Assembly: GCF_013283745.1 (NCBI RefSeq)
Contig: NZ_JABSTZ010000001.1
Location: forward strand, 1,444,406-1,508,405
Direction of reading: 5' to 3'
From: Aeromicrobium stalagmiti
GTDB lineage: Bacteria; Actinomycetota; Actinomycetes; Propionibacteriales; Nocardioidaceae
DNA: 64,000 nt
This document shows, piece after piece, positions 980 to 16,843 of the stretch. Each line of letters opens with the position of its first letter. The first letter of the stretch is position 1. The position numbers and the translations under genes are program-made. Under the pieces are notes generated by a model. The model was not told the origin of the DNA. It was given only the letters and a program-made list of their open reading frames with translations, and made no database searches.

Positions 980-2697
980 GCCGCCGCTGGATCTATGTCG
1001 CCCTGACGGCGGCGCTCGCGACAGCCGCGTCGATCTGGGCGGTCCCGCGCCTGGACGAGCCGGGATGGTTCGCGTACGTCGGTCAGGGCGGCGCGGGGGA
1101 CGGCCCGCCGCTGCCGTCCCTGTCGCCCGACCTGTTCCTCTATCCGGTCAGCGCCCAGGTCGTGCTGCTCGCGGTCGGCGTCGGCCTGCTGGTGCAGATC
1201 TACTCGACCGCCTATCTGGGTCACCACCCGCGCTACCGGTCCTACGCCCTGATCATCATTCTGTTCCTCGTCGGCATGATCGCCGTCGTCGGCACGACCA
1301 ACCTCTGGGTGCTGCTCGTGGGCTGGGAGGTCATGGGGCTGTGCTCCTACCTGCTGATCGGCCACGAGTGGCAGACGGCTGAGGCGCGCGCCGGCGCCGC
1401 GAAGGCGTTCCTCGTCACCCGCGTCGCCGACCTGGGCCTCCTGCTCGCGATCCTGGTGATCGGCGAGACCTACGGGACGTACGACATCGTGGGCGCGCAG
1501 ATCGCCTCGTCGCAGGACGGTGTGGCGAGCTCGACGGCGATCGGTCTGCTCGTCCTCGTGGCTGTCGTCGGCAAGTCGGCGCAGTTCCCGCTGCAGACCT
1601 GGCTGCCCGACGCGATGCCCGGTCCGACGCCCATCACGGCGCTGATCCACGCCGCGACGATGGTCGCTGCCGGGGTCTATCTGGCCGCCCGCCTCTTCCC
1701 GTTCTACGCCGACTCGACCGTCGTGCTCACCGCCATGGCGGTCGTCGCCGGCATCACGATGCTGATGGGCGCGCTGTTCGCGCTGGTGCAGACCGACCTC
1801 AAGCGAGCACTGGCCTGGTCGACCGTCAGCCAGCTGGCGTTCATGTTCGCCGCGATCGCAGCCGGCGACCCCGAGGCGGGCACCGACCACCTGATCTCGC
1901 ACGGCGTGTTCAAGGCCCTGCTGTTCCTGGGCTGCGGCTGCCTCATGCATGCCGTCGGCTCGAGCGCTCTCGCGGCGATGGGCGGTCTTCGCCGGTCGAT
2001 GCCGGCGACGTTCTGGACCATGTCGATCGGGTTCGCGGCGCTCGCCGGCGTCATCCCCACGGTGGGCTTCTTCACCAAGGACTCCGTGCTCCATGCCATC
2101 GAGCAGTCCGCCGGCGAGGACGGTGGTCTCGCGACCGGCACGACGTACGTCCTGCTGGGCGTGGCCCTCGTGACGTCGTTCGTCACGGCGGCCTATGCGA
2201 CCCGGCTGTGGCTGCGGGCGTTCTTCGGCCCGGTGCCGGACGGACGCCAGGAGCACCACGGGCACGAGGCGCCGCGCGCCATGATCGGCCCGCTGGTCGT
2301 GCTGGCCGTGGCGACGTTCGCCCTGTCGATCGGGCAGCCGTTCCACCTCGGCATCGGGGTCGTCGGCACCGTGATCGCCGCGGGCGGCATCGCCGTCGTG
2401 GTGTGGTCGTGGCGGGGCGGCTCGACCTTGGAGTGGACGACGCGGCCCCTCACGGCCGAGCTCGGCCTCGATCGTCCCTTCACCTCGTGGGCGCCGGCGT
2501 TCGCGCGAGGGGTGTCGCGCACCGTGGTCGACCTCGATCGTGACGGGGTCGACGTCTATCCGCGCGCCGGCGCAGGGGTCGCCGGACTCACGTCGCGCGC
2601 GCTCGAGCTCGTGCAGACACGCAACGTGCAGCGCTATGCGACCGTCATCGCGGTCGGCGTCCTCGTGCTCGTCGTGGCGGCGGTGATCTGGACGTGA
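976..2697 (+). CDS. nuoL: NADH-quinone oxidoreductase subunit L (short N-terminus)
   Basis: Antiporter-like proton-pumping subunit at the distal end of complex I. The product has 573 residues, against roughly 600-650 in most homologues. The conserved block begins at about residue 65 ([20 protein letters not shown]) and includes [17 protein letters not shown] with the key glutamate, the lysine helix near [17 protein letters not shown], and the [12 protein letters not shown] and [17 protein letters not shown] segments. The C-terminal lateral helix and last transmembrane segment are present. Only one hydrophobic helix precedes the conserved block, so the extreme N-terminus looks shortened. The ATG overlaps the nuoK stop and the TGA overlaps the nuoM GTG. 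Confidence 0.95.
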
Positions 2698-4121
2698 TCG
2701 TCACCGCTCTCGCCGTCCCCTTCGTCATCGGCCTGCTCCTGATGGTCGGACGGGCCAGGGTCTCCGGACCCGTCGCCGCAGCGATCGGTGCTGCCGCGAT
2801 GACGGTGTCGCTGCTGCTCTACGCCCTCGTCTGGGAGGGCCGCGACGTCGTCTCGGGCGAGGTCGACACCTCGTGGATCGAGCCCCTCGGCGCTCGCCTG
2901 CACCTCGGCGTCACCGCCGTGTCGTGGCCGTTCCTGCTCATGACGGCCTTCATCGGCGTGCTGTGCTGCCTGTGGCTCGTCGCCCGCGACACCGCGCCGG
3001 CGCTGGTCGGGCTCGTGCTCGTCATCAGCGCGTCGTCGCTCGGCGTCTTCAGCTCGCTCGACCTGCTGCTGTTCTTCGTCTTCTTCGAGCTCGCGCTGAT
3101 CCCGATGTGGTTCGTCATCGCCTGGTTCGGCACGGGAGACGGCACCCGCCGCGCGGCGACGCGGTTCCTGCTGTTCACGGTCGCCGGGTCGGCGCTGGTG
3201 CTGGTCGGCATCGTCGTCATCGGGCTCGACGGCGGGCTGCAGGTCGACGAGACGGTGACCGGGTCGCTCGCGGCCGCCGTGCTGGTCTGCCTCGGTTTCG
3301 CGGTCAAGACGCCGATCGTCCCGCTCCACACCTGGCTGCCCGACGCCCACAGCACGGCGCCGACGGTCGGCTCGGTGCTGCTGGCTGCGGTGTTCCTCAA
3401 GCTCGGCACCTACGGACTGATCCTGTTCGCCCCGCTCATGGACCGCTTCGCAGACGTCGCGCCCTACCTCGCGATCGCCGGGGTCGTCGGCATCGTCTGG
3501 TCGGGCTTTGCCTGCTACGGCCAGGACGACCTCAAGCGGCTCGTCGCCTACTCCAGCATCGGGCACATGGGATTCGTCGTCCTGGCCATCTCGACCCGCT
3601 CGGACGTCGGCCTCGCCGCCGCGGTCTTCGGCTCCGTCGCGCACGGCCTGATCACGGGGCTGCTGTTCTTCACCGCCGGGTCGCTCAAGGACCGTTTCGG
3701 CACCGCGTCGATGGCCGCCATCGGTCGCGGGCTGTACGGCCGCACCCCGTGGCTGGCGGTGACGTTCGTGCTCGCCGCTGTCGCGAGCCTGGGCCTGCCG
3801 GGGCTCGCAGGGTTCTGGGGAGAGCTTCTGTCGCTTCGCGCGGCGTACGAGATCGGTGACGTGCTGACCAAGCCCGTCGCCTGGACTGCCCTGGCGCTCG
3901 CCCTGGTCGGTGTGGCGCTGACGACGGCCTACTTCGTGCGTGCGATCCGGCTCGTCGCACAGGGCGAGCCGGTCGAGCAGGACGCCGACCGCGACCTCGA
4001 CCGGCGTGAGGCCGTCGTGCTCGGGGCACTCGTGGTTGCCGTGCTGGTGCTGGGCCTGTGGCCGGCGCCGATCCTCGACCTCTTCGAGCCGTTCACCGTC
4101 GTCGCCGGAGTCGCCCGATGA
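2694..4121 (+). CDS. nuoM: NADH-quinone oxidoreductase subunit M
   Basis: Second antiporter-like subunit of the complex I membrane arm; 475 residues, near the family norm. Visible signatures are the glutamate helix LLFFVFFELALIPMWFVI (about residues 122-139), the lysine helix FAVKTPIVPLHTWLPDAH (about 201-218), a conserved DDLKRLVAYSSIGHMGFV (about 277-294) and about 14 hydrophobic segments. The GTG start overlaps the nuoL stop (GTGA). Its own stop overlaps the nuoN ATG. An upstream start is not possible without running deep into nuoL. Confidence 0.96.
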   Translation: MIVTALAVPFVIGLLLMVGRARVSGPVAAAIGAAAMTVSLLLYALVWEGRDVVSGEVDTSWIEPLGARLHLGVTAVSWPFLLMTAFIGVLCCLWLVARDTAPALVGLVLVISASSLGVFSSLDLLLFFVFFELALIPMWFVIAWFGTGDGTRRAATRFLLFTVAGSALVLVGIVVIGLDGGLQVDETVTGSLAAAVLVCLGFAVKTPIVPLHTWLPDAHSTAPTVGSVLLAAVFLKLGTYGLILFAPLMDRFADVAPYLAIAGVVGIVWSGFACYGQDDLKRLVAYSSIGHMGFVVLAISTRSDVGLAAAVFGSVAHGLITGLLFFTAGSLKDRFGTASMAAIGRGLYGRTPWLAVTFVLAAVASLGLPGLAGFWGELLSLRAAYEIGDVLTKPVAWTALALALVGVALTTAYFVRAIRLVAQGEPVEQDADRDLDRREAVVLGALVVAVLVLGLWPAPILDLFEPFTVVAGVAR

Positions 4122-5521
4122 ACATCCCCATCGACTGGAGCCTCGTCGCCCCCGCCGTGATCGTCATGGTCGGCGCGCTCGTCGCGCTGCTCGTCGACGC
4201 GTTCTACCCGCGGCGGACCTGGCTCGGATCGGGTCTTCCGTCGACCGGCGCGCTGGTCGTGGCCGGCGTCCTGGCGCACGTCCACCGCGACGACATCGGC
4301 CGCCTCTCGTTCGCTCTCGTGGCGATCATCCTCGTCGGCAGCCTGTTCGTCGTCGTCGCGTCCAACATCATGAACTTCGAGACCGCGATGCCGCCGGGGG
4401 AGTTCCACTTCCTGCTGATGAGCGCTGCCGCCGGCGCCGTGCTCATGGTCGTCGCGCGCGACCTGGTGACCCTCGTGATCTCGCTCGAGCTGCTCTCGCT
4501 GCCGTCGATCGCGCTCGTGGGGCTGCGGCAGGGCGACAAGGTGGCCATCCGCTCGGCGTGGACGTTCTTCCTCGCCTCCGTCGTGTCGACGGCGATCACG
4601 TTGATGGGCATCTCGCTCCTCTACGGCGTCACCGGCTCGCTCGACTACGTCGAGATCCGCGAGGCGCTGGCCAGTCCCGAGGTACCGCAGAGCGTCGTCG
4701 CGGTGGCCGTCGTCCTGACCCTGGTCGGGCTGCTGTTCAAGCTGGGTGCGGTGCCGTTCCACGTGTGGATCCCCGACACGTACGTCGGCACGTCCGTCAT
4801 GGTCGCCGGCTTCCTGTCGGCGGTCTCCAAGGCGGCAGCGCTGGGCGCGCTGCTGATCCTCGTCAACGTGGCGTTCCCCTACGCGTACGGCACCTGGCAG
4901 CCGCTCCTCGCGGTCGTCGCGGCCGTGACCATGACGATCGGCAACATCGGCGCCCTGCGCCAGAGCGACGCGATCGGGCTGCTGGCGTGGTCGTCGATCG
5001 CCCAGGCGGGGTTCCTGATCGCACCGTCGGTCGCGCTGCTGACGACGGAGGGGCTGACCGCGCCGGTGCAGTACCTCGCGGTCTACGCCCTGGCCAACCT
5101 GGTCGCGTTCGCCGCGCTCTCGGTCGTCCTCCGTCTGCGCGGCAGCACCCGGATCGACGAGCTCAAGGGCATGGTCCGCACCGACCCGTGGATGGGTATC
5201 CCGCTGGTCTTCGCAGCCCTGACTCTCGCCGGCTTCCCGCCGGCGGTGATCGGTCTGGTGACCAAGTACGTCGTGATCCGGCCGGTCGTCGACTCCGACC
5301 ACGTGTGGCTCGCGGTCGTCATGGGCGTCAACGTGATGCTGGGGCTGGCCTACTACCTGCGGCTCGTCGTCACGCTCTGCGACCAGCCCGACGGTGAGCC
5401 CTACGTCAGCCCGTCACCGCCGGTGTCGGTGCGCATCGCCAAGACGACCGTCCTGCTGGGGACTGCCGGCCTGATCGCGCTGAGCGCGTGGCCCGACCTG
5501 CTGCTGCGGCACCTGCCCTGA
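4118..5521 (+). CDS. nuoN: NADH-quinone oxidoreductase subunit N
   Basis: Third antiporter-like subunit, last gene of the operon; 467 residues with about 14 transmembrane segments. Family landmarks are LVTLVISLELLSLPSIALVG (glutamate helix), LLFKLGAVPFHVWIPDTYVG (lysine helix and discontinuous helix), and SDAIGLLAWSSIAQAGFL. The ATG is fixed by the 4-base overlap with the nuoM stop. Transcription of nuo runs toward yajQ on the opposite strand; the 105-base gap holds a long inverted repeat that may act as terminator. Confidence 0.96.
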   Translation: MNIPIDWSLVAPAVIVMVGALVALLVDAFYPRRTWLGSGLPSTGALVVAGVLAHVHRDDIGRLSFALVAIILVGSLFVVVASNIMNFETAMPPGEFHFLLMSAAAGAVLMVVARDLVTLVISLELLSLPSIALVGLRQGDKVAIRSAWTFFLASVVSTAITLMGISLLYGVTGSLDYVEIREALASPEVPQSVVAVAVVLTLVGLLFKLGAVPFHVWIPDTYVGTSVMVAGFLSAVSKAAALGALLILVNVAFPYAYGTWQPLLAVVAAVTMTIGNIGALRQSDAIGLLAWSSIAQAGFLIAPSVALLTTEGLTAPVQYLAVYALANLVAFAALSVVLRLRGSTRIDELKGMVRTDPWMGIPLVFAALTLAGFPPAVIGLVTKYVVIRPVVDSDHVWLAVVMGVNVMLGLAYYLRLVVTLCDQPDGEPYVSPSPPVSVRIAKTTVLLGTAGLIALSAWPDLLLRHLP

Positions 5522-5556
5522 CCCTCGCCGTGGGGCAGCCAGCCGCGCGGCGAGCT

Positions 5557-5621
5557 CCACGATGTCGGCACTGATGGGTGACCCAGGACCGTGAGACCGC
5601 ACAAAAGTGCCGAGATCGTGG
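5557..5621. repeat. Long imperfect inverted repeat between nuoN and yajQ
   Basis: Arms at 5557-5572 and 5606-5621 (CCACGATGTCGGCACT and AGTGCCGAGATCGTGG) pair at 15 of 16 positions across a 33-base spacer. It lies between two convergent genes, so it could end transcription from both sides. No T-run follows either arm. The sequence and layout also resemble a dispersed repetitive extragenic element, which cannot be tested from one window. Confidence 0.6.
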
Positions 5622-5626
5622 ACGGC

Positions 5627-6118
5627 TCAGCGGTAGTTGGTGAACTGCACCGCGAAGTCGAGGTCGGCACCCTTGAGAAGCGCGATGACCTCCTGCAGGT
5701 CGTCGCGCTTCTTGCTCGTGACGCGCAGCTCGTCGCCCTGGATCTGGACCTTGACGCCCTTGGGACCCTCGTCGCGGATCAGCTTGGAGACCTTCTTGGC
5801 CTGCTCCTGGCTGATGCCCTCGCCGAAGCTGCAGTTGATCTTGGTGTCCTTGCCCGACTGGCGGGGCTCGCCGTCCTCGAGGGCCTTGAGCGAGATGCCG
5901 CGCTTGATGAGCTTGTCCTTGAAGACGTCGAGCACCGCGAGGGCCCGCTCGTCGGCGTTGGCGGTGATCTCGATGCCCCACTCGCCGCTCCACTTGATCT
6001 CGGCGCCGGTGTTCTTGAAGTCGTACCGGGTCTGGATCTCCTTGACCGCCTGGTTGAGCGCGTTGTCGGCCTCCTGACGATCGATCTTGCTGACGATGTC
6101 GAAGGATGAGTCGGCCAT
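5627..6118 (-). CDS. yajQ: YajQ family nucleotide-binding protein
   Basis: Product of 163 residues, the exact size of the YajQ family (two RNP-like domains; some members bind cyclic di-GMP). The family opening [19 protein letters not shown] and the segment [14 protein letters not shown] are clear, as is the C-terminal [11 protein letters not shown]...[10 protein letters not shown]. The ATG is preferred over an upstream in-frame ATG because AGGAG lies at good spacing before it and family members begin with M-A-D-S-S-F-D. Transcribed toward nuoN. Given three GGDEF/EAL proteins in this window, binding of c-di-GMP is possible but not shown. Confidence 0.93.
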
Positions 6119-6208
6119 GGGGGTGCTCCTGGTGCGTTGCGGGGGACTGATTTCTCTCAGACTAATCGGCTGCGATAGTCTTGCTTGTCGTTGCCCCGGC
6201 AACACCCC

Positions 6209-6290
6209 GGCAGGTTGCCCGAGTGGCCAAAGGGATCTGACTGTAAATCAGACGGCTCAGCCTACGCAGGTTCGAACCCTGCACCTGCCA
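6209..6290 (+). tRNA. tRNA-Tyr (GTA)
   Basis: An 82-base cloverleaf. Acceptor arms GGCAGGT and ACCTGCC pair fully with A as discriminator. The anticodon stem TCTGA/TCAGA encloses loop CTGTAAA with anticodon GTA at 6243-6245. A long variable arm (class II, as expected for bacterial tRNA-Tyr) precedes the T-arm GCAGGTTCGAACCCTGC. CCA is not encoded. Confidence 0.95.
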
Positions 6291-6301
6291 CGGGAATCGT
6301 G

Positions 6302-6341
6302 AAGGGCCTCTGACCCACCCAGACGTGGGTCAGAGGCCCTT
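6302..6341. terminator. Strong hairpin after tRNA-Tyr
   Basis: A perfect 17-bp stem (6302-6318 with 6325-6341, AAGGGCCTCTGACCCAC) with a 6-base loop. It follows tRNA-Tyr and also lies downstream of the minus-strand secreted-protein gene, so it probably works in both directions. Confidence 0.9.
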
Positions 6342-6382
6342 CTGCGGTCGCGGTCGCCCGGCGACCGTCTCCGTGAGCGGTG

Positions 6383-6760
6383 CTACGAGCAGCGCGGGGG
6401 CAGGACGCTTCCGGTCGTGTAGACGGCGTCGTAGCGGGCCCAGCCGGCGGCACCCGTGCTCGTGTTGCGGGCGTAGACCCACTCGAGGCCGTTGTCGTTC
6501 ACGCGGCTGCAGTGCACGTCGATCCCCTGGCCCTGGTAGCCCCGCCCGACGACCGTGCAGTCGGTGTAGCCGGCGGTGCGGATCGCGGTGCCGTCGCCCC
6601 AGCTGAAGGTGCCGGTGCTGATCTTGTCGGGGTGGACGTCCCACTTCGCCTGGGTGCAGTGGGTCGCGGCCGTCGCCGAGCCTGCCGTCATCGGCGAGAT
6701 GGCGGTCAACGCTCCGGCGGCCATCGCAGCCGCGCCGACCAGTCGTGTCATTCGCTTCAT
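6383..6760 (-). CDS. Small secreted protein of unknown function
   Basis: Product of 125 residues. It starts with a typical Sec signal peptide: basic MKRMTR, a hydrophobic Ala-rich core, and a likely cleavage site after SATAA-T (about residue 32). The mature part of about 93 residues has four cysteines (HCTQ, DCTV, HCSR and the penultimate RCS), suggesting two disulfides, and many Trp, Tyr and Gly residues with a GTFSWGDGTAIRTAGYTDC core. I do not recognise a named family; such compact Cys-rich secreted proteins are common in actinobacteria. An AAGGGGG ribosome-binding site precedes the ATG. It appears monocistronic, with the hairpin at 6302-6341 downstream. Confidence 0.75.
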   Translation of the reverse strand: MKRMTRLVGAAAMAAGALTAISPMTAGSATAATHCTQAKWDVHPDKISTGTFSWGDGTAIRTAGYTDCTVVGRGYQGQGIDVHCSRVNDNGLEWVYARNTSTGAAGWARYDAVYTTGSVLPPRCS

Positions 6761-6992
6761 TGTTTCCCCCTTGATGATCGGGACATCCCACCCGTGAGAG
6801 GCCCCTGAGCCCTCGCGCCGCTGGTCGGTGTGAGGTGACTCACGGACGACCGTAGAGGCCGACCCGGGGTCCGTCGACACGCGAGTTCGAGCGGAGAAGC
6901 ATCAAGCCCGGAAGCACAGGACGGTGCTGCCGAGTGTTCATTCGTGTGTCCGGGACGGTTCACCTGCCGCGATCGGGACGGACGGTGCAGGG

Positions 6993-7670
6993 TCAGCTCC
7001 TGCGGTGCCAGGTCCAGTCGGTCGGCAGGGCGATCCCGTCGAGCCCGATGCCCTGGTAGATCAGTCGGTAGGCGTCGGGGTTGTCGATGCGCTGGCGCTC
7101 GAACATGCGGTGCAGGTTGGCCCACAGGGGAGTGCTGCTGGGCGATCCCAGGTACTCGCCGGTCTTGGTGCCGGGCAGCGCCTGGGTCTGCATCTGCAGA
7201 CCGGTCAGCAGCTGGCGGGCGTGGGAGTCCATGATCATCACGATGTAGTCGATGTCGTTGGCGACCGCCGCGGTGACGATGCCGTGATACAGCGCCCCGG
7301 CGCACAGGCCCCCGCGTCCTGCTCCCTTGCGGACGGCGATCGTCGCGACGTCCCACGTGCGCTCCGGGTCGACGCCGGCCGACCGTGCCGAGCGCAGGCC
7401 GTCGACGCGCCACGGCGGACGGCTGACGTCGTTGAGGGTCTTGAGGCCGGCCGGACCCGGGGCGATGAACCGCGCCGTCGCGATCGCGCTGCCGTCGTCC
7501 TCGAGCACGGTCATGAACCCGGTCGACTCCTCGTAGGGGCCGTACTCGACGTCGAACTCCTCGGGGGTGTTGCCATAGGTCTCCCAGAAGACCTGTGCCT
7601 CGCACCGCTGGGCGGCCGCCAGCTCGTCGCCGACGGGATCGAACACGAACCTCAGGGGTGCGGCGGTCAT
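6993..7670 (-). CDS. LuxI/GNAT-fold N-acyltransferase-like protein
   Basis: Product of 225 residues. The N-terminal half follows the acyl-homoserine-lactone-synthase/FeeM pattern: AQVFWETYGNTPEEFDVEY (aromatic and acidic residues before the beta-bulge), then ATARFIAP resembling the conserved R-x-x-P of LuxI proteins. The second half has TWDVATIAVRKGAG, an Ala-rich helix and DYIVMIMDSHARQLLTGL, matching the GNAT core in which the acyl donor binds. This suggests transfer of an acyl chain from acyl-CoA or acyl-ACP to an amine. The ATG overlaps the stop of the GGDEF-EAL gene (ATGA), so it is the third gene of an operon with a PLP decarboxylase. The substrate is not deducible. A general GNAT acetyltransferase is the alternative reading. 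Confidence 0.7.
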   Translation of the reverse strand: MTAAPLRFVFDPVGDELAAAQRCEAQVFWETYGNTPEEFDVEYGPYEESTGFMTVLEDDGSAIATARFIAPGPAGLKTLNDVSRPPWRVDGLRSARSAGVDPERTWDVATIAVRKGAGRGGLCAGALYHGIVTAAVANDIDYIVMIMDSHARQLLTGLQMQTQALPGTKTGEYLGSPSSTPLWANLHRMFERQRIDNPDAYRLIYQGIGLDGIALPTDWTWHRRS

Positions 7671-9988
7671 CGGGTCTCCTCCCGGTCGAGGTCGGGGTCA
7701 TGGCTATCGACCGCCGTGGACGGGTCCGAGGAGTGCTGGGTGGCGGTCCAGTCGCGCACCCACTCGTTGATCCGCGACGACGGCATCGGCCGCGCGAGGT
7801 GATAGCCCTGCACGGTGTCGATCCCCATCGCGACCAGCGCGGCGAGGTCGGCGGCGTTCTCGACGCCCTCCGCCACGATGCGCATGTCGAGGGCGTGCGC
7901 GAGCTGGATCGTGGAGGCGACGATCATGCGGCTGCGGTCGTCGGTGGCGACGTTGGCGATCAGGGCGCGATCGATCTTGAGCTCCTGGACCGGCAGGTTG
8001 CGCAGGTAGGTGAGGGACGAGAACCCGGTGCCGTAGTCGTCGATCGAGACCTGGACGCCGTGGCTTCGCAGCTCGAGCAGGATGTCGCGGGTGGCCTGCG
8101 GGTCGGAGAGGAACGAGTCCTCGGTGACCTCGAGGACCAGGCAGTCGGCCGGGATCTCGAGCTCGGCCAGTGACGTGTAGAGCTGGGGCAGGAAGCTCGG
8201 CCCGAGCAGCTCGGGCGGCGCGCAGTTGACCGCCACGCGGACGTCGAGACCGACCTCCAGACGGGCCCGGAGGTCAAGGACGGCCTGGCGCGCCACGACG
8301 TCCGAGAGTCGGCCCATCAGGCCGGCGCGACGGGCTGCGGGCAGGAACGACACCGGGCTGATGAGGCCCTGGGTGGGGTGGCGCCACCGCACGAGGGCCT
8401 CGAGGCCGGACACCTGCATCGTCGCGGCGTCGAGCTGCGGCTGGTACCAGACCTCGATCTGGCCGTCGGCGATTCCCTTGCGCAGCTCCTCGGCGAGCTG
8501 CAGGCGCGACCGGGAGAACTCGTCGAGCTCGGCGTCGTAGAGCGCCACCCCCAGGCCGGAGTTCTTGGCCTGGTACATCGCGACGTCCGCGCGGCGCAGC
8601 ACCTCGCTGCCGTCCTGGTCGCCGGCCTGTGCGACGGTCACGCCGATCGATCCCGACGGGGAGATCTCGATCTCGTCGACGACGATCGGCTGGGCGAGCT
8701 CGGCGAGGACCTCGTGCGCCGTCTCCATCAGCACGATCTCGTCGGTCGTGCTGAGGATGATCGCAAACTCGTCGCCACCGAGGCGGGCGACCCGCACGTG
8801 CTGGTCGACAGCCTCGCGCATGCGCAGGGCCACCAGCATGAGCACCTCGTCACCGGCCCGGTGGCCCAGGGAGTCGTTGATCTCCTTGAACCCGTCGAGG
8901 TCGAGCAGCATCAGTGCCATCGGCTCGCGGTCGGTCAGACCCTGCGACAGCCAGGTGCGGACGGCGCGGCGGTTGGGCAGCTTGGTCAGGTCGTCGGTCT
9001 GCGACAGGGCGAACGCCTCGTTGGCCCGGTTGGCGTCGCGGAGCGCCAGCGCGAGGCGGCCGGCGACGGCGACCATCGTGAGGAGCGCCGGCGGCAGCGT
9101 GTAGTAGGCGAGCGTGTCGTCGGGTCGGATGGTCAGCACCGCCATCGCGGCGACTCCGGCGCTGACGAGCACCGTGGGGCCGGCGACCTTGGGGACGCCC
9201 CGGATGACCGACTGGCGAGGCCGGCAGGCGGCCGCCACGAGCAGGGCGAACCCGCTTCCCCACAGGGCGTTGCTGAGGTTGCCGAAGTCGTAGGTGCGGG
9301 CCGAGACCTGCAGGGCGAAGCCGGAGTCCGCACCGGCCAGCATCAGGAACGCGACCCCGATCATCAGCGACTTGCGGCGGTCGCTGCGCGTGAGCAGGAG
9401 CGACTGGCCGAGCACGACGAGGGCCAGGATCACGTCAGCCAACGGGTAGATCAGGGCCAGCAGCAACGAGAGGCCGTCCTGCCCCGACGCGAGCTGGATC
9501 GGCGTCACCAGCAGCAGCGACGCCAGGCACATCGTGCCGCCGCAGATGACGGCGATGTCGAGCCAGCCGCGTGCGGGGCGAGTGGCGCGGCGGTCGACGT
9601 CGCGCAGCAGGTAGCCGGCCATGCCGAGATAGGAGATCAGGAACAGCCACTCGCCCGGAGCAGGGAAGTGCGCCTGCTCGCCCACACGAGCGGCGTTGAC
9701 GGAGATCGATCCCAGCGACCAGGCCGTCACCGCGGCGAGCAGGAGCAGCAGCGTCGTGCGGCGGCCCGGCGACAGCACCACGGCGAGCGCCATGCGGAGC
9801 ACCAGCAGGGGGAAGAAGACCGAGAGCGAGGTCAGCAGGATCGCCGGGCTCCGGTGGTGGGCGACCGACTGCGAGACCTGGTTGGCGAGCAGCCCGACGA
9901 TCAGCACCGCCCACGACAGGCGCGCGACGACCAGGTGTGCTCTTGAGACCCACGCGGTGGTCGCGGCGGAGATCCTCACGGCGGTCAT
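7667..9988 (-). CDS. Membrane GGDEF-EAL c-di-GMP enzyme
   Basis: Product of 773 residues. The first roughly 315 carry about nine hydrophobic segments forming an integral-membrane sensor. A GGDEF domain follows (about 340-495) with TDDLTKLPNRRAV and an intact ARLGGDEFAI, then an EAL domain (about 510-755) with GLEALVRWRHP, AVNCAPPEL, LEVTEDSF, SIDDYGTGFSSL, LKIDRALI and AEGVEN, i.e. all metal-binding positions appear intact. Both cyclase and phosphodiesterase activity are therefore possible. It starts 3 bases after the decarboxylase stop, and its stop overlaps the acyltransferase start. Sharing an operon with two enzymes of small-molecule metabolism suggests that the membrane domain senses a product of that pathway; this is inference. 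Confidence 0.92.
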   Translation of the reverse strand: MTAVRISAATTAWVSRAHLVVARLSWAVLIVGLLANQVSQSVAHHRSPAILLTSLSVFFPLLVLRMALAVVLSPGRRTTLLLLLAAVTAWSLGSISVNAARVGEQAHFPAPGEWLFLISYLGMAGYLLRDVDRRATRPARGWLDIAVICGGTMCLASLLLVTPIQLASGQDGLSLLLALIYPLADVILALVVLGQSLLLTRSDRRKSLMIGVAFLMLAGADSGFALQVSARTYDFGNLSNALWGSGFALLVAAACRPRQSVIRGVPKVAGPTVLVSAGVAAMAVLTIRPDDTLAYYTLPPALLTMVAVAGRLALALRDANRANEAFALSQTDDLTKLPNRRAVRTWLSQGLTDREPMALMLLDLDGFKEINDSLGHRAGDEVLMLVALRMREAVDQHVRVARLGGDEFAIILSTTDEIVLMETAHEVLAELAQPIVVDEIEISPSGSIGVTVAQAGDQDGSEVLRRADVAMYQAKNSGLGVALYDAELDEFSRSRLQLAEELRKGIADGQIEVWYQPQLDAATMQVSGLEALVRWRHPTQGLISPVSFLPAARRAGLMGRLSDVVARQAVLDLRARLEVGLDVRVAVNCAPPELLGPSFLPQLYTSLAELEIPADCLVLEVTEDSFLSDPQATRDILLELRSHGVQVSIDDYGTGFSSLTYLRNLPVQELKIDRALIANVATDDRSRMIVASTIQLAHALDMRIVAEGVENAADLAALVAMGIDTVQGYHLARPMPSSRINEWVRDWTATQHSSDPSTAVDSHDPDLDREETR

Positions 9989-9991
9989 GAT

Positions 9992-11314
9992 CTATGCCTC
10001 CAGGCTCGCCAGGACGAGGTCGACGTCGTGGGTCGACGTCAGGGGGTTGACGAAGCAGAGCCGGAGCGCCGGCTCACCGGCGAAGGACGTCGGCGCGACC
10101 AGGGCGAGACCGTCCGCCCGGGCGCGAGACGACCACTGCGCGTACTGCTCACGGATCCACCCCTTGCGGCGGAAGAGCACGACCGACAGGTGGGGATCGG
10201 TCGCGAGCTCGAGGTGGGAGCTGGCCTCGATCTGCTTCGCCGCATGGTCGGCGGTGGCCAGGCAGACCTCGATCGCGTCGACGTAGGCATCGGTGCCGTT
10301 GGCGACGAGCGACGCCCAGACGGGCAGGCCGCGAGCCCGGCGGGTCAGGTGGACGGCGTAGTCGGCCGGGTTGTCGTCATCGGCGCCGTTGACGACGTCG
10401 AGGTAGTCCGCGCGCTGTTGATGGGCCTCGCGGGCGAGCCTCGGGTCGCGATAGAGCACCGCAGCGCAGTCGAACGGGGTGAACAGCCACTTGTGCGGGT
10501 CGATCGTGATCGAGTCGGCGGCCTGGATGCCGGCGAACGAGGCGCGGCGGGCCGGAGCCAGCAGCGCAGCCCCGCCGTAGGCGGCGTCGACGTGGAGCCA
10601 GGTGCCGCGATCGGCACAGCACTCGGCGATCTCGTCGAGGGCGTCGATGGCTCCGGTGTTGGTCGCGCCGGCCGTCGCGACGACCGCGACGACCGTGGCC
10701 GGGTCGAGGGATCCGAGCGCCAGTGCCAGGTCGTCGGACCCTAGCGGCCGGTCGGGCGACCCGGCGAGGACGACCTCGCAGCCCATGATGGCGGCAGCGG
10801 CCCGCACCGAGGAGTGGGCTGATGCGCCGGCGACGATGACGCTCGGGACGCCGCCGCCGGGAGTCGTCCGCCCGTGCCGTGCAGTCACCAAGGCACTGAG
10901 GTTGGCCAACGAGCCGCCGCTCACGAAGACGCCGTGGGCCTCGACCGGGTAGCCGACGACGTCGCACATCCAGCGGATCGCGGCGCGCTCGGCGGCCACG
11001 ACGTCGCCGGCCTCGAGCTCGCTGCCCCCGTAGATCGACGCTGCCGACAGGGCGGCGTCCGCAATGACGGCGGCGGGAGTCGGTGAGCCCCCGACGAAGG
11101 CGAGGTAGCGCGGGTGGTCAGTCGGGAAGGCCGTCGGCATCAGCACGTCGCGCAGAACGGTCCACGTCGCCCCGATCCCGATGCCGGCCGCGGTGACCTC
11201 GGGCAGTCGGGTCAGGCGGGCAGGGCGGACGGGCGCGACGGTCGACCGACGGTCGGCGATCCAGCCGGCGAGGTCGGTCAGGACCTCCCGGTCCTGCAAC
11301 GCAAAGTCGTGCAC
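9992..11314 (-). CDS. PLP-dependent (group II) amino-acid decarboxylase
   Basis: Product of 440 residues, the size of aromatic-L-amino-acid/glutamate decarboxylases. PLP-binding features are clear: SGGSLANLSALVTAR (phosphate loop), WLHVDAAYGGAALL (aspartate to the pyridine nitrogen), and SITIDPHKWLFTPFDC with the Schiff-base lysine in DPHKW. It should convert an amino acid to the matching amine and CO2; an aromatic substrate is the usual case for this subgroup but is not proven. The GTG start is chosen because it begins the family-like N-terminus (ALQDREVLTDLAGWIADRR); no clear Shine-Dalgarno precedes it. First gene of the operon leading into the GGDEF-EAL and acyltransferase genes. Confidence 0.88.
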   Translation of the reverse strand: MHDFALQDREVLTDLAGWIADRRSTVAPVRPARLTRLPEVTAAGIGIGATWTVLRDVLMPTAFPTDHPRYLAFVGGSPTPAAVIADAALSAASIYGGSELEAGDVVAAERAAIRWMCDVVGYPVEAHGVFVSGGSLANLSALVTARHGRTTPGGGVPSVIVAGASAHSSVRAAAAIMGCEVVLAGSPDRPLGSDDLALALGSLDPATVVAVVATAGATNTGAIDALDEIAECCADRGTWLHVDAAYGGAALLAPARRASFAGIQAADSITIDPHKWLFTPFDCAAVLYRDPRLAREAHQQRADYLDVVNGADDDNPADYAVHLTRRARGLPVWASLVANGTDAYVDAIEVCLATADHAAKQIEASSHLELATDPHLSVVLFRRKGWIREQYAQWSSRARADGLALVAPTSFAGEPALRLCFVNPLTSTHDVDLVLASLEA

Positions 11315-11505
11315 GTGAACCCATCGATCCCGAAGTTGAACAGCGAACAGGGCGTCGAGGCCCCTCGGACGTGACCGTCCGGCGGTTGTTCTGTCTCCCT
11401 CAGAATCCCCCCACCGTCAGGTTAACCTCGCGCTCGTCCAGGTGCGCGCACAGCGGCGTGACGCTGGTCACTCGGCGGCGATGGCGGCCCGTCGGGACGC
11501 GGTCT

Positions 11506-11555
11506 GGCCCGCTCGTCAGGCCCGCTCGTCAGGCCCGCTCGTCAGGCCCGCTCGA
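11506..11555. repeat. 13-base tandem repeat in a gene-free stretch
   Basis: Three exact copies of GGCCCGCTCGTCA (11506-11518, 11519-11531, 11532-11544) and a partial fourth. The surrounding stretch 11315-11657 (about 340 bases) has no gene I can support. It should contain the promoter of the decarboxylase operon, but no clear -35/-10 pair was identified. Confidence 0.8.
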
Positions 11556-11657
11556 CCTTGGTCCAGCCACGCCCGCCCGGCTCGGTGAGCAGCTCCCTCA
11601 GCCGCGGGACCATCGAGTGGGTCTCGCGGCACTGTCACGGGCACCGCAAGGGGTGCG

Positions 11658-12038
11658 TCAGAGCGGCGCGAGACGGGTCCTGAGCAGGCAGAACTCGTTG
11701 CCCTCCGGATCGGCCAGGACGTGCCACGCGTCGTCGCCCGTCTGACCGATGTCAGCAGGGCGGGCGCCGAGCGTCAGCAGCCGCTCGAGCTCGTCGGCCT
11801 GGTCGCGGTCGGTGGCGTTGACGTCGATGTGCAGCCGCGACTTGCCGGGCTCCGGCTCCTCGCGGGCGCTCAGGATGATCGTCGGCTGCGGTCCGCCGAA
11901 GCCCTCGCGTGGCCCGATCTCCAGCGTGCCGTCGTGCTCGCGGTCGAGCACGACGTAGTCGAGGACCTCGCACCAGAAGCGCGCGAGCACCTCCGGATCG
12001 CTGCACCCCAGGACGAGCTCACTGATGCGACAAGCCAT
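11658..12038 (-). CDS. VOC-family (glyoxalase/bleomycin-resistance-like) protein
   Basis: Product of 126 residues, one vicinal-oxygen-chelate unit with two beta-alpha-beta-beta-beta modules. The first is ISELVLGCSDPEVLARFWCEVLDY, the second runs from KSRLHIDVNATDRDQADELERLL to the end AWHVLADPEGNEFCLL. Metal-ligand-like positions H (LHIDV) and E (GNEFCLL) are present. In this actinobacterial group (glyoxalase-like domain, often annotated VOC) the substrate is usually unknown. The ATG gives the expected N-terminus. It lies 50 bases downstream of the beta-lactamase gene on the same strand and may be co-transcribed. Confidence 0.82.
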   Translation of the reverse strand: MACRISELVLGCSDPEVLARFWCEVLDYVVLDREHDGTLEIGPREGFGGPQPTIILSAREEPEPGKSRLHIDVNATDRDQADELERLLTLGARPADIGQTGDDAWHVLADPEGNEFCLLRTRLAPL

Positions 12039-12088
12039 GGACGGGGACCTTCTCTCGATCGGAAGCGGACGCTCCCGCGACCGTACCG

Positions 12089-13000
12089 TCAGCCCAGCGC
12101 GCCGATGGCGATGCGCGTGGCCTCGGCGATCATCGCGTCGTCGGAGGTGTCGTCCTGCCCGTCCCGGCTCGACATCACCGCGATCAGCACCGGAGAGCGG
12201 CGGGGAGGGAACAGCACGGCGACGTCGTTGCGCACCCCGTAGTCGGCACTCCCCGTCTTGTCGGCCACCACCCAGCCGTCGGGCACGCCGGCCCGGATGA
12301 GGGCGTCCCCGGTCGTGTTGTTGACCATCATGGTGCGCAGCAGGGCTCGGTCGCGGCGGGGCAGTGCGGTGCCGGTGACGTACGTGCCGACCGTGCGTGC
12401 GAGGGCCTGCGGTGTCGTGGTGTCGCGGACGTCGCCCGGGATCGCGGTGTTGAGGTCGGGCTCGAGACGCTCCGGGTCGGTGACGCGATCGCCGACCCGG
12501 TCGAGCGCGCGGTCGAGGCCGTCCGGACCGCCGATCTCGGCATAGAGCAGGTTGGCGGCGGTGTTGTCGCTGAAGCGCAGGGCGGCGTCCATGATCGCGC
12601 GCAGGGTCATCCCGTCGTCGACGTGCTGCTCGGTCACGGGGGAGTAGGGCACGAGGTCCTGTGCGGTGAACCGGATCACGCGCGACAGGTCGCGCTGCGA
12701 GACGCGATCGAGGACGGCTCCCGACAACGGAGCCTTGATGGTCGAGGCGAAGGCGAACCGCTCGTCGCTGCGCCACGTCACGGAGCGTCCTGTGCTGGTG
12801 TCGAGCACGAAGAGCCCGAGCCGTGCGTCGTACGTCTTCTCGAGTGCGGTGAGGTCGTCGGCGACCGGGGTCGGGATCGGGGCCGTGCTCACGTCGATGG
12901 CGTCGGGTGAGGCGGCGTCGGCCTGGTCGGGTGCACAGGCGGTCGCGAGCAGGGCTGCGGCGGCGGCCAGCGCCGCGACGGCGGTCCGGGTGTTGTTCAC
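12089..13000 (-). CDS. bla: Class A beta-lactamase, lipoprotein
   Basis: Product of 303 residues. The N-terminus is a lipoprotein signal ending in LLATAC, so the enzyme is probably anchored to the outer face of the membrane. All class A motifs are visible: FASTIKAP (catalytic S-x-x-K), SDN in RFSDNTAANLL, EPDLN (the E166/N170 omega-loop pair) and VADKTGSADYG (KTG). Serine hydrolysis of penicillins or cephalosporins is therefore expected. The GTG start is set by a GGAGAG ribosome-binding site 7 bases upstream. No resistance-type regulator of the BlaI/BlaR type is adjacent; the neighbouring upstream gene on the strand is a response regulator 47 bases away. Confidence 0.92.
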   Translation of the reverse strand: MNNTRTAVAALAAAAALLATACAPDQADAASPDAIDVSTAPIPTPVADDLTALEKTYDARLGLFVLDTSTGRSVTWRSDERFAFASTIKAPLSGAVLDRVSQRDLSRVIRFTAQDLVPYSPVTEQHVDDGMTLRAIMDAALRFSDNTAANLLYAEIGGPDGLDRALDRVGDRVTDPERLEPDLNTAIPGDVRDTTTPQALARTVGTYVTGTALPRRDRALLRTMMVNNTTGDALIRAGVPDGWVVADKTGSADYGVRNDVAVLFPPRRSPVLIAVMSSRDGQDDTSDDAMIAEATRIAIGALG

Positions 13001-13047
13001 GGTGTTCTCTCCGTTGCTGTGTGAGGCGTCCAGGGGGGTCGGGCGGT

Positions 13048-13668
13048 CTAGATCCAGCCGTGCTCGCGGGCCTTGAGCGCGGCCTCGTAGCGGTTGGAGA
13101 CACCGAGCTTGGCCATGGCGGACGACAGGTAGTTGCGGGTCGTGCCCATCGACAGGTGGGCGCGCTGGGCGATCTCCTCGACGGACGAGCCATCGGCGGC
13201 GAGCTCCAGGACGTCGGCCTCGCGCGCCGAGAGCAGGGAGTCGCCCGCACTGATCGCGTCGGCGGCCAGCTCCGGGTCGACGTAGCGGCCGCCGGAGTGG
13301 ACCGTGCGGATGACCGCGGCCAACGTCGCCGCCGGGGTCGTCTTGGGCAGGAAGCCCCGGACGCCGGCGGTCAGTGCGCGCTTGAGATAGCCCGGACGTC
13401 CGTGGCTGGTGACGATCATGGTGCCCGCGCCCGGCGTCAGCAGGAGGATCTGCTCCGCGGTGTCGACGCCGTCGATGCCCGCCATCTGCAGGTCGATGAC
13501 GGCCACGGCCACGGGCTCGCCGGCGTCGACTCGACGGCGCCACAGGGCGAGCAGCTCCTCGCCGGACTCGACGTGGGCGACCACGTCGATGTCGTCCTCG
13601 AGGTCGAGCATCGTGGCGAGCGCGGATCGGATCAGTGTCTCGTCATCTGCGAGCAGTACCGGAATCAT
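13048..13668 (-). CDS. NarL/DesR-type response regulator
   Basis: Product of 206 residues: receiver domain (about 1-120) and LuxR-type HTH (about 140-200). Receiver landmarks are the acidic pair in LLADDETLIRSAL, the phospho-acceptor aspartate in VAVIDLQMAGIDG, the Thr/Ser at TMIVTSHGRPG, and the lysine of FLPKTTPAATL. The HTH reads LSAREADVLELAADGSSVEE then HLSMGTTRNYLSSAMAKLGV. The ATG overlaps the stop of the histidine kinase (ATGA). It is the last gene of a five-gene operon with an ABC transporter. A likely DNA target is the ATGACA-AA-TGTCAT palindrome at 16907-16920 and its relative at 18411-18424. Confidence 0.93.
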   Translation of the reverse strand: MIPVLLADDETLIRSALATMLDLEDDIDVVAHVESGEELLALWRRRVDAGEPVAVAVIDLQMAGIDGVDTAEQILLLTPGAGTMIVTSHGRPGYLKRALTAGVRGFLPKTTPAATLAAVIRTVHSGGRYVDPELAADAISAGDSLLSAREADVLELAADGSSVEEIAQRAHLSMGTTRNYLSSAMAKLGVSNRYEAALKAREHGWI

Positions 13669-14804
13669 GCAGTCTCCCAATGGATCTCGAGGATGAACTC
13701 GCCGTCTCGTACGACGGTGTCGAGCGTCGCGCCGCCGGTTGCGAGGCGCTCGGCGAGGCCCAGCAGACCGGATCGTTCCTTCGGGGCGTCGGATGCGCCG
13801 TCGTTGCGCAGTGACATCCCGGACCGCCCGAAGGCGAGGGTCGCCGACCGCGCCGCCGAGTGCTTGACGATGTTGGTGGTCCCCTCGCGCACGACCCATG
13901 CCGCGAGCTCGTGGACCTCGGAGGGCACCGCAGCCGGATCGCCCTCGACGACCAGCGCGCACCCGGCGGACGACAGCAGGGCGCGGGCACCGGCGACCTC
14001 GCCCTCGAGGTCGATGTCGCGATAGCCGCGGACGAGCTGGCGCATCTCGGCCATCGACTCGACCGCGAGCGCCCTGACCTCGTCCATCTCCGCCGTGGCG
14101 CGGTCGGCGACGCCTGCGCGTGACAGCGCCGCGGCCAGCTCGCTCTTGACGGCGATCGCCGAGAAGCTGCGACCGACGACGTCGTGCAGGTCGCGAGTAA
14201 AACGCAGAAGTTCCTCGGCGAGCTGCAGCTCCGCGCCGAGGTCCTTGGCGTGCTCGAGGTCGTCGACGATCCGCAGGCCCCACAGGGTCAGGAGCGACGT
14301 CGTGACGACGAACAGTCCCAGGGCGAGCGTCGTCGACATGACCCGGAGCTCGGTCCCGGCCGGGGCGCCGAGGGCGAAGCCGGTCGCGACGCTGAGCGCG
14401 ACCACCAGCCACCAGCGGTGACGGCTGAACGAGATCAGGCAGAGGGCGCCGAACATCGCCGCGCAGACACCGGCCACGCGAGCCTGCTCGATGGCGGCCT
14501 CGCTGCCGGCGGTGTTCGCGACGACTGCGGAGGCGCCCCACACCGCGGTGAGGACAGCCGCGGATGCGGGTATGGCCCACCGCCGGAACGTCGCACCGGG
14601 CCAGGTGGCCAGCTCGGTGCGTGCCTCCAGGGCGGCGATCGTGGCGATGCCGGCCAGGACGATCGCCACCACCGGCCGCGGGCCGCCGCTGCTGATCGAC
14701 AGGGCGATCACGGCAGCGACGACCGCTCCTTGGAGGGTGAGCCGGGTGTAGAGGCGGAACTTGGCCGGGCCGGGCATGTCCCGCCACCAGGTGGACCAGC
14801 GCAT
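13665..14804 (-). CDS. DesK-type sensor histidine kinase
   Basis: Product of 379 residues. The N-terminal half has about six hydrophobic segments. The HisKA_3 dimerisation domain shows the phospho-acceptor in FTRDLHDVVGRSFSAIAVK (about residues 197-215), and the ATPase domain shows the N-box region AAWVVREGTTNIVKHSAA and the later SGLLGLAERLATGGATLDT. This is the kinase class paired with NarL/DesR regulators. The ATG overlaps the upstream permease stop (TGATG), and its stop overlaps the regulator start. The stimulus may be related to the substrate of the linked ABC transporter or to the state of the membrane; this is not shown. Confidence 0.93.
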   Translation of the reverse strand: MRWSTWWRDMPGPAKFRLYTRLTLQGAVVAAVIALSISSGGPRPVVAIVLAGIATIAALEARTELATWPGATFRRWAIPASAAVLTAVWGASAVVANTAGSEAAIEQARVAGVCAAMFGALCLISFSRHRWWLVVALSVATGFALGAPAGTELRVMSTTLALGLFVVTTSLLTLWGLRIVDDLEHAKDLGAELQLAEELLRFTRDLHDVVGRSFSAIAVKSELAAALSRAGVADRATAEMDEVRALAVESMAEMRQLVRGYRDIDLEGEVAGARALLSSAGCALVVEGDPAAVPSEVHELAAWVVREGTTNIVKHSAARSATLAFGRSGMSLRNDGASDAPKERSGLLGLAERLATGGATLDTVVRDGEFILEIHWETA

Positions 14805-15619
14805 CAGCCGCGGTCGTCCCAGCGGAAGTTCCTGCGGGTGAGCTCGAGCGCGAGGACGGTCCACACGACCAGTATCGCCACGGGCTCAGCGATCTCTGCA
14901 AACGTGCCGGAGAAGTCCAGCGCCGTGGCCGAGTCGGGGGCGGTGGCCAGACGGCCCGAGGTCCCGATCGACATGAGGTCGGACAAGGCGGCGAACGGCG
15001 TCCAGTCGGCGAGCTGGGCCAGCCGGTCCGGGAAGGTGCTGCGGAGCGTGGAGAGCCCCATGAAGGCGAGGGCCATGATCGGCAGGGACGTGATCTGGGC
15101 GGCCTCGGCATTCTTGGTCAGCGCGCTCGTCGCCAGGCCGAGCAGCGAGAAGATGGCGATTCCGGCGAGGACGGCGATCGCCATGAGCACGGGATTGACC
15201 GGAGCCGGGGCGCCGGCCGCGTAGACGACGGCAGTGACGAGGGCCGTGCCGACCAACGTGATCACCGCGCCCGGCACCATCGGTGCGACCTGGATCTGCC
15301 AGTCGGTGGCCTCGCCCGTCCTCAGCCGCTTGAGCACGCCCTCGGAGCGACGGGTCGTGACCATCGACAGCACCGAGTAGAACTGCACGAAGAGCAGGGC
15401 CAGGAGGACGAACATCTCGAACGTGGTCGTGGCCAGGGACGCCGAGACGCCCTCCTGGTTCCTGACGACGAAGAACGTCGCCAGCGGGATCGCCACGGGG
15501 AAGCCGATGCCCATGACGAGCAGGGTGGTGTTGCGGCGGAACTGCAGATACTCGGCCTTGGCGAGCGCGACCAGCGGACGCCTGCGTCGGGCCGGTGCGG
15601 ATGCGGTCGTGGTGGTCAT
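14804..15619 (-). CDS. ABC-2 type transporter permease
   Basis: Product of 271 residues with six predicted transmembrane helices and the ABC-2 layout (a membrane-entry helix NTTLLVMGIGFPVAIPLA, a long second helix, and a family-like ARLRTGEATDWQI-type segment after SVLSMVTTRRSEGVLKRL). It forms an exporter with the ATPase encoded immediately upstream; the ATG overlaps that gene's stop (ATGA). Its own stop overlaps the kinase start. Transporters of this type next to DesK/DesR systems often export lipids, peptides or antibiotics. The substrate here is unknown. Confidence 0.9.
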   Translation of the reverse strand: MTTTTASAPARRRRPLVALAKAEYLQFRRNTTLLVMGIGFPVAIPLATFFVVRNQEGVSASLATTTFEMFVLLALLFVQFYSVLSMVTTRRSEGVLKRLRTGEATDWQIQVAPMVPGAVITLVGTALVTAVVYAAGAPAPVNPVLMAIAVLAGIAIFSLLGLATSALTKNAEAAQITSLPIMALAFMGLSTLRSTFPDRLAQLADWTPFAALSDLMSIGTSGRLATAPDSATALDFSGTFAEIAEPVAILVVWTVLALELTRRNFRWDDRG

Positions 15620-16557
15620 GAGGGTGCTCCGATCAGTCCGGGGGTGGGGGCCGACGTGGTGGTGGGGTTGTCGGCGATGGTGAGGAAGACCGACTCGAGC
15701 GAGGCGGCCCTGGCGTCGAGCCCGACGAGCTCGATGCCGTGGGCGCGAGCCCAGCCGAGCAGCTCGTACAGGTGACCTTGCAGGTCGCGAGTGCTCACGG
15801 TGACGCGTGACCTGGCCTCGACGTGGGCACCGTCCAGCGGTGGCAGTGCGAGGCCCGGGTGCTCGAAGGCGATCGTCGCCGGGTGGGCGTCGACGATGTC
15901 GCGGAGCGTCCCGCTGTTGGCCACCTCGCCCTGGTGCATGATCGCGATGTGGTCGGCGAGCGCCTCGGCCTCGTCGAGGTAGTGGGTCGTCAGGACCATC
16001 GTCACGCCTGACGCCTTGAGGTCGGCGAGCAGCTGCCACGTGGCGCGTCGGCTCTCGGGGTCGAGCCCGGTCGTGGGCTCGTCGAGGAACAGCACCCGTG
16101 GCTGCCCGAGAAGGGCGGCTGCCAGGTCGACGCGGCGCTTCTCGCCACCTGACATCGCGCCGACCCGGACGTGGGCCCGGTCGATGAGGTCGACCTGCTC
16201 GAGGACGGCCTCGACCGTCGTGGGGTTGCTGCAGGTGCCGCGCCACATCTCGAGCGTCTCGGTGACGGTGAGCTCGGCCGGCAGGCCGCCGGACTGGAGC
16301 ATGATGCCGATCTGCGGGCGGACGGTCGCGCGCTCGGTGTGGGGGTCCAGACCGAACACCTCGACCCTGCCGCTGGTGGGGGCGGACAGCCCTTCGAGCA
16401 GGTCGAGCGTCGAGGTCTTGCCGGCCCCGTTGGTGCCGAGGAGGCCGAAGACCTCGCCTTCCTGGACATCGAGGTCGATGCCCTTGACCGCCTCGAAGGC
16501 AGAAGCCCCGTGGCCGTAGACGCGGCGCAGATCGCGCGTCGAGATGACGGTGCTCAT
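15616..16557 (-). CDS. ABC transporter ATP-binding protein
   Basis: Product of 313 residues. Walker A is LLGTNGAGKTSTLDLL, the signature is GAMSGGEKRRVDLAAALLG, Walker B with the catalytic glutamate is RVLFLDEPTTGLDPESR, and the switch histidine is in MVLTTHYLDEAEAL. A C-terminal extension of about 80 residues follows the NBD, as in DrrA-like exporters. The ATG overlaps the stop of the small membrane protein upstream (ATGA), supporting this start over an in-frame one 33 bases earlier. Second gene of the operon running down to the response regulator. Confidence 0.94.
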   Translation of the reverse strand: MSTVISTRDLRRVYGHGASAFEAVKGIDLDVQEGEVFGLLGTNGAGKTSTLDLLEGLSAPTSGRVEVFGLDPHTERATVRPQIGIMLQSGGLPAELTVTETLEMWRGTCSNPTTVEAVLEQVDLIDRAHVRVGAMSGGEKRRVDLAAALLGQPRVLFLDEPTTGLDPESRRATWQLLADLKASGVTMVLTTHYLDEAEALADHIAIMHQGEVANSGTLRDIVDAHPATIAFEHPGLALPPLDGAHVEARSRVTVSTRDLQGHLYELLGWARAHGIELVGLDARAASLESVFLTIADNPTTTSAPTPGLIGAPS

Positions 16558-16826
16558 CGGGCACCCCACTTCCGGATGCCGGCGGCCCAACGGATCGCGA
16601 CGTAGACGACGGCGGCAGCGGCGACGCCGACCGCGACGGCGGGCTCGGGCCGGATCACCGCAAGGCCGGCGCCGACCACCGCGAGGTTCACGATCGCCGA
16701 GAAGGCCTCGCGCGAGCGGTTGGGGGCGGGACCGAGGCGCGACACGTCCTTGACCAGCTCGTCGAGGCCGGCGTCACGGAAGCCTGGTTCGGTGGGGACA
16801 GGATGGTTGGTCTGTGTGCTGTTCAT
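16554..16826 (-). CDS. Small two-helix membrane protein, operon leader gene
   Basis: Product of 90 residues. A polar N-terminus with Gly and Asp (FRDAGLDELVKDVSRLG) is followed by a hydrophobic pair of helices (IVNLAVVGAGLAVI and VAVGVAAAAVVYVAIRW) ending in a basic tail. No family recognised; it has the size and layout of small accessory membrane proteins. A GGAAGA ribosome-binding site precedes the ATG. It is the first gene of the ABC/two-component operon. Its leader is nearly identical to that of the PAP2 gene, with the palindrome exactly 80 bases before the start codon in both cases. Confidence 0.78.
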   Translation of the reverse strand: MNSTQTNHPVPTEPGFRDAGLDELVKDVSRLGPAPNRSREAFSAIVNLAVVGAGLAVIRPEPAVAVGVAAAAVVYVAIRWAAGIRKWGAR

Positions 16827-16843
16827 GTCTTCCAGCCTCGCCG

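Follow-up and report, generated by a model that had tools for sequence, protein, structure and literature searches.

DEC, GGE, and ACT, which encode a decarboxylase, a membrane GGDEF-EAL protein, and an N-acyltransferase-like protein of predicted LuxI/FeeM fold, form a tight minus-strand operon in Aeromicrobium stalagmiti, and this operon is well supported as a real, self-contained, block-mobile unit. We put at about even odds (a probability of roughly 0.5) the reading that an N-acyl amine is the product of the module and is coupled to c-di-GMP.

Organization of the Operon and Assignment of DEC and GGE

The window referred to below is the whole stretch of DNA that was analysed, 64,000 nucleotides in length. 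Within it, DEC (9992-11314, minus strand; 440 amino acids, GTG start), GGE (7667-9988, minus strand; 773 amino acids), and ACT (6993-7670, minus strand; 225 amino acids) are separated, by their ORF coordinates, by a 3-base gap between DEC and GGE (9989-9991) and joined by a 4-base overlap, ATGA on the minus strand (7667-7670), shared by the stop of GGE and the start of ACT. Judging by coordinates, the same overlap occurs in several relatives, for example at loci L021 and L022. A search of the operon region found no sigma-70 promoter, and its sole terminator-like site is on the opposite strand.

The product of DEC is a PLP-dependent group II amino-acid decarboxylase, matching Pfam family PF00282 with an E-value of 8.6e-50 and 170 bits against a cut-off of 27, and its DPHKW motif with the PLP-binding lysine (K275) is invariant across 14 genomes. 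Its best PDB relatives (4obu, 8zpi, and 4rit) include a diaminobutyrate-type enzyme and differ in their annotated substrates. GGE carries a GGDEF domain (E 1.2e-39) and an EAL domain (E 4.7e-68) according to Pfam, preceded by about nine hydrophobic segments, and its catalytic motifs (GGDEF, EAL, N, E, DD, K, E, and Q) are intact and conserved across the module; the model of its N-terminal domain was too low in confidence for use (pLDDT 48.8). The first-pass annotation of this DNA, which had described three ORFs spaced by this gap and overlap, a PLP decarboxylase, and a membrane-bound enzyme with intact GGDEF and EAL motifs, is thus confirmed on all of these points. Two more GGDEF-EAL genes are found in the window, at 34984-36273 and 37991-40132, the latter also matching part of the N-terminal region of the module GGE.

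Conservation and Mobility of the Three-Gene Unit

The order DEC-GGE-ACT was observed in 14 Nocardioidaceae genomes belonging to at least three genera. A close DEC orthologue (E < 1e-230, the next-best decarboxylases scoring about 1e-130 or weaker) is present in exactly 14 of 198 family genomes, all of which also carry ACT, and four family genomes that have ACT in a SpeD-type or remnant locus contain no close DEC orthologue. When positions 1-17000 of the window were compared by blastn with the 13 other three-gene loci, similarity ended at about 6991 and 11336, that is, at the ends of the operon, so that the DNA common to all of them spans 6991-11336; one stray match, in L028, falls in a separate GGDEF gene. 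When the loci were grouped by shared flanks, the genus alone showed five different sites and the whole set up to nine, although outside the genus divergence could also mask shared flanks. The site occupied in L021, L023, L024, and L027 is present and empty in the window genome (L096), where the matching flanks are about 180 bases apart, and the distribution of the operon is patchy, as it is missing from many genomes of the genus. The ending of similarity at the operon ends, the differing sites, and the empty site therefore indicate that the operon was gained, lost, or moved as a whole unit. No relative of ACT was found in the plasmid and phage collections searched.

More distant ACT proteins occur in other Nocardioidaceae, at about 37-46% identity, and also in one order from a second class of the phylum, where 12 of 148 genomes gave a match, four of them weak; the phylum-wide searches score few candidates per genome, which makes their absence counts unreliable. 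In all 26 confident loci from two classes (the 14 DEC-type loci, L033-L036, L042, and L056-L062), ACT has a GGDEF-EAL gene as its direct neighbour or no more than about 1.3 kb away, and this adjacency holds down to about 26% ACT identity, often with changed orientation. Gene order beyond this genome, which the first-pass annotation had set as a test, is therefore seen both as the three-gene arrangement in 14 genomes and as a wider linkage of ACT with GGDEF-EAL genes. Since the window genome has 12 GGDEF genes in 3.68 Mb, for which we estimate a chance adjacency to ACT of about one percent per genome, and yet 26 of 26 loci are linked, the linkage is more than chance. Across 16 neighbourhoods outside Aeromicrobium, only GGE, ACT, and a SpeD-like gene recur, and no LuxR gene does so. 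Weaker ACT-like proteins (L043, L063-L066, L091, and L098), kept out of the count of 26, are also encoded near a GGDEF gene; among them, those of L091 (8451-12134), L043, and L098 are very divergent and come from further families of the phylum, L091 carrying a SpeD-like gene as well, a hint of an older and more widespread association.

Fold and Family of the Acyltransferase

The window ACT has no Pfam match, and as a single sequence it retrieved nothing useful from the PDB; a profile was needed to reach PDB relatives, of which LasI came first with a weak E-value of 0.02-0.03. An AlphaFold2 model built from 18 sequences reached a pLDDT of 89.3, and Foldseek placed BjaI, FeeM, and LasI within the top five matches, with an E-value of 4e-7 for FeeM (2g0b) and TM scores of 0.61-0.63 by query and 0.72-0.76 by target. 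Structure prediction, which the first-pass annotation had suggested as a check, thus gave LuxI- and FeeM-type enzymes as best matches, ordinary GNATs, including SpeG, trailing them at only slightly weaker E-values; neither this check nor the one on gene order refuted the earlier reading.

At the level of families, the relatives of ACT give weak matches to the profiles of exosortase-type acyltransferases, AHL synthases, and FeeM. PF00765 (Autoind_synth) matches neither ACT nor any other protein of the window genome, the control genomes likewise being without a match, and among 18 ACT relatives it matches two (best E 0.022), while PF21926 (FeeM) does not match ACT and matches one of the 18 (E 0.027). 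The NCBIfam profile TIGR03694 matches 17 of 18 relatives with E-values down to 2.9e-7, all far below its cut-off; the window ACT scores 18.5 bits against a cut-off of 111.95. An exosortase (PF09721) was not found in nine module genomes, the control search being positive in one, and an identity as exosortase-associated acyltransferase was rejected on both the score and the missing exosortase.

The signature residues of LuxI enzymes are R24, F28, W34, D45, R70, E101, and R104. In the LasI profile alignment, which is weak, F28 and R70 are kept in ACT, E101 corresponds to Asp107, and R24, W34, D45, and R104 are replaced by E, N, G, and T, respectively. ACT is therefore best described as having a predicted LuxI fold without the LuxI signature, and it fails as a member of the LuxI family; the earlier suggestion of a LuxI/FeeM-like protein stands for the fold and falls for membership, given the missing PF00765 match and the loss of most signature residues. 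Homoserine-lactone synthesis by ACT is not supported. Asp107 is invariant in the ACT proteins and, through LasI E101 in the same weak alignment, is equated with the catalytic glutamate of FeeM (Glu95) and of the N-acyltyrosine synthase Nas354, which needs its Glu103 (PMC4897644).

Two Decarboxylase-Type Proteins in One Slot

Of the 12 loci that lack DEC, nine have, immediately upstream of ACT, a gene for a small protein of about 110-130 amino acids with the motif GWAGW(I/V)HWE(T/N/S)SGAH(F/L/M)YAW...FFSVD(V/I)Y(A/T)C. All nine proteins match PF02675 (S-adenosylmethionine decarboxylase; best E 7e-11), and this Pfam result is the basis of their assignment as SpeD-like, their profile having given no match in the PDB. 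Because most loci without DEC have a SpeD-like gene upstream of ACT, two unrelated decarboxylase-type proteins share one slot. At L035, the SpeD-like gene is a remnant (8440-8658, minus strand) with its central part missing, apparently a decaying copy beside an intact ACT, and at L062 the SpeD-like and ACT sequences form a single uninterrupted reading frame of 388 residues (7351-8517, minus strand), a natural fusion unless there is a sequence error. L060 and L061 have ACT and GGE and no recognisable decarboxylase-type gene, either DEC or SpeD-like. A search of 19 module genomes with PF02675 gave matches only at three module copies, and since it missed the other module copies it does not prove the absence of a canonical SpeD.

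Comparison of the positions S63, H68, and C83 (Thermotoga maritima numbering; PMC10407285) showed that the pyruvoyl serine and the catalytic cysteine are kept in the SpeD-like proteins, and that every module copy has Tyr at the position of His68, a residue without which T. maritima SpeD is not processed (PMC10407285). Because of this replacement, the module proteins may be altered or inactive enzymes. SpeD relatives can also be ornithine or arginine decarboxylases (PMC10407285). In the ACT tree, a single change separates DEC-type from SpeD-type loci (support 82/71), and as SpeD-type loci flank both sides of the root, drawn at the midpoint, replacement of the SpeD-like gene by DEC would be the simpler reading, although it is not proven.

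Proposed Function and Alternatives

In the proposed mechanism, DEC would convert an amino acid by decarboxylation into a primary amine, onto which ACT, as a FeeM/LuxI-fold enzyme, would move a fatty acyl group; GGE would either sense the resulting amphiphile in place of a LuxR receptor or set the c-di-GMP level for its synthesis. We infer in this scheme the DEC substrate, the long-chain acyl donor, the amine acceptor, and the direction of coupling. That the genes belong together is shown by their conservation, and an amine would be the substrate of ACT because one decarboxylase-type protein substitutes for another, while the fold similarity of the model suggests a long acyl chain in the product. 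We prefer a sensing role of GGE to control of synthesis on two grounds: the protein is membrane-bound and has a large input domain, and a LuxR gene does not recur. The SpeD-like genes found in the decarboxylase slot of relatives lend support to the N-acyl amine pathway coupled to c-di-GMP put forward in the first-pass annotation, which is still a conjecture. Weighing against it are Asp107 in the position of the catalytic glutamate, the small-acyl GNATs that also match the ACT model, the tyrosine in place of His68 in the SpeD-like proteins, and the lack of a decarboxylase-type gene at L060 and L061. It is a tentative possibility that the module represents a new signalling class, namely a portable cassette whose decarboxylase, of either of the two unrelated types, and LuxI-fold acyltransferase would produce an N-acyl amine that a dedicated membrane GGDEF-EAL receptor would turn directly into a change of c-di-GMP, with no transcriptional receptor.

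The alternative that survives best, although we consider it unlikely, is amine or polyamine homeostasis, in which DEC or the SpeD-like protein would make an amine, ACT would acetylate it or add a short chain in the manner of SpeG, and GGE would read the amine level. MbaA of Vibrio cholerae is a membrane GGDEF-EAL protein that reads polyamines, and SpeG structures are among the Foldseek matches of ACT; however, they rank below BjaI, FeeM, and LasI, and the weak profile matches point to exosortase-type acyltransferases, AHL synthases, and FeeM. The SpeD-family neighbour in relatives is consistent with this alternative, as are the ornithine and arginine decarboxylases among SpeD relatives (PMC10407285). 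An improbable second alternative is that cells in the sessile state make the product as a lipid of the membrane or surface, such as an N-acyl amine surfactant or lipoamine, whose synthesis GGE would merely time through c-di-GMP without sensing. The FeeM-PilZ fusions are enzymes that produce N-acyltyrosine surfactants (PMC4897644), and the loci share only GGE, ACT, and a decarboxylase-type gene, with no LuxR-type gene in common, both of which would fit a surface lipid; against it, the module has no c-di-GMP effector such as PilZ, and its c-di-GMP gene encodes a membrane enzyme with a large input domain of its own.

That an actinobacterium acquired a canonical acyl-homoserine lactone synthase is very improbable: LasI leads the PDB sequence matches and the ACT fold matches BjaI and LasI, but the genome lacks a PF00765 match, only two of the seven LuxI signature residues are kept, with E101 as Asp, and the module has no recurring LuxR gene, and AHL synthase membership of ACT was ruled out on the missing PF00765 match and LuxI residues. 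Accidental proximity or carriage as unrelated cargo, with which the coincidence of operon boundaries and block mobility would agree, is scarcely credible and is contradicted by conservation, since the ACT-GGDEF-EAL adjacency persists across two classes at about 26% ACT identity and in changed orientations, whereas other flanking genes do not recur.

Relation to Known Systems

The N-acyl amine reading, in the favoured model, resembles by analogy only the DSF/RpfG and polyamine/MbaA systems, in which a c-di-GMP enzyme provides the readout of a small molecule. The LuxI-type AHL synthases LasI (1ro5), BjaI (5w8a), and MesI (6wns) have the same overall fold as the ACT model and share the equivalents of F28 and R70 with it, but ACT lacks their PF00765 match and most signature residues, and the module lacks a recurring LuxR. 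The PEP-CTERM/exosortase-associated acyltransferases of TIGR03694 are the best profile match for most ACT relatives; they are set apart by the low score of the window ACT and the absence of exosortase from the nine module genomes. FeeM and the FeeM-PilZ fusions Nas343 and Nas354 (PMC4897644) resemble ACT in fold (TM up to 0.76 by FeeM length) and in probable N-acyl transfer. In contrast to FeeM, ACT has no PF21926 match, has Asp for the catalytic Glu, and is linked to a decarboxylase-type gene. The fusions show a FeeM-type enzyme linked to c-di-GMP elsewhere (PMC4897644), but through a fused PilZ domain, whereas the module uses a separate GGDEF-EAL enzyme. The small gene of relatives matches the SpeD family (PF02675) in 9 of 9 cases with Ser and Cys kept, as compared with SpeD and its ornithine/arginine offshoots (PMC10407285); it differs in the Tyr for His68 and in having an acyltransferase as partner rather than spermidine or homospermidine genes, and the window genome is without this module SpeD-like gene.

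No described module of this composition was found in the searchable literature, of which coverage was partial and included few subscription journals, in agreement with the earlier statement that no such system was known. In papers dealing with Gram-positive LuxI and with AHL signalling among Actinomycetota, term searches returned no mention of GGDEF or decarboxylase linkage, and the paper on SpeD neofunctionalisation mentions no acyltransferase or GGDEF (PMC10407285). What appears to be new is the conserved and mobile arrangement of a FeeM/LuxI-fold acyltransferase system with a decarboxylase and a GGDEF-EAL protein, the fold itself being known. If the proposed function is true, actinobacteria would carry a portable acyl-amine system feeding straight into c-di-GMP, a link that for the FeeM/LuxI fold appears in the accessible literature only as FeeM-PilZ fusions, and the exchange of a PLP decarboxylase and a SpeD-like protein in one slot gives a concrete prediction of the chemistry, an acylated amine.

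Neighbourhood of the Operon in the Window

A gene resembling class A beta-lactamases (PF13354, E 4.8e-41) lies upstream of the operon at 12089-13543. Near the operon, at 13048-14864, ORF translations read as a histidine kinase and as a response regulator whose end is of the LuxR DNA-binding type; this pair is not counted in the module because it is absent from other loci. On the other side, a 165-amino acid, small secreted-looking protein without a Pfam match is encoded at 6383-6880, between the operon and a tRNA-Tyr gene (6209-6291), and a perfect inverted repeat of 18 bp (6301-6342) comes after it. The 3' part of the tRNA-Tyr gene (6265-6285) has a 21-base inverted copy of 81% identity at 6984-7004, just where ACT and the mobile unit both end; this partial copy may be a matter of chance or may record an insertion beside a tRNA gene.
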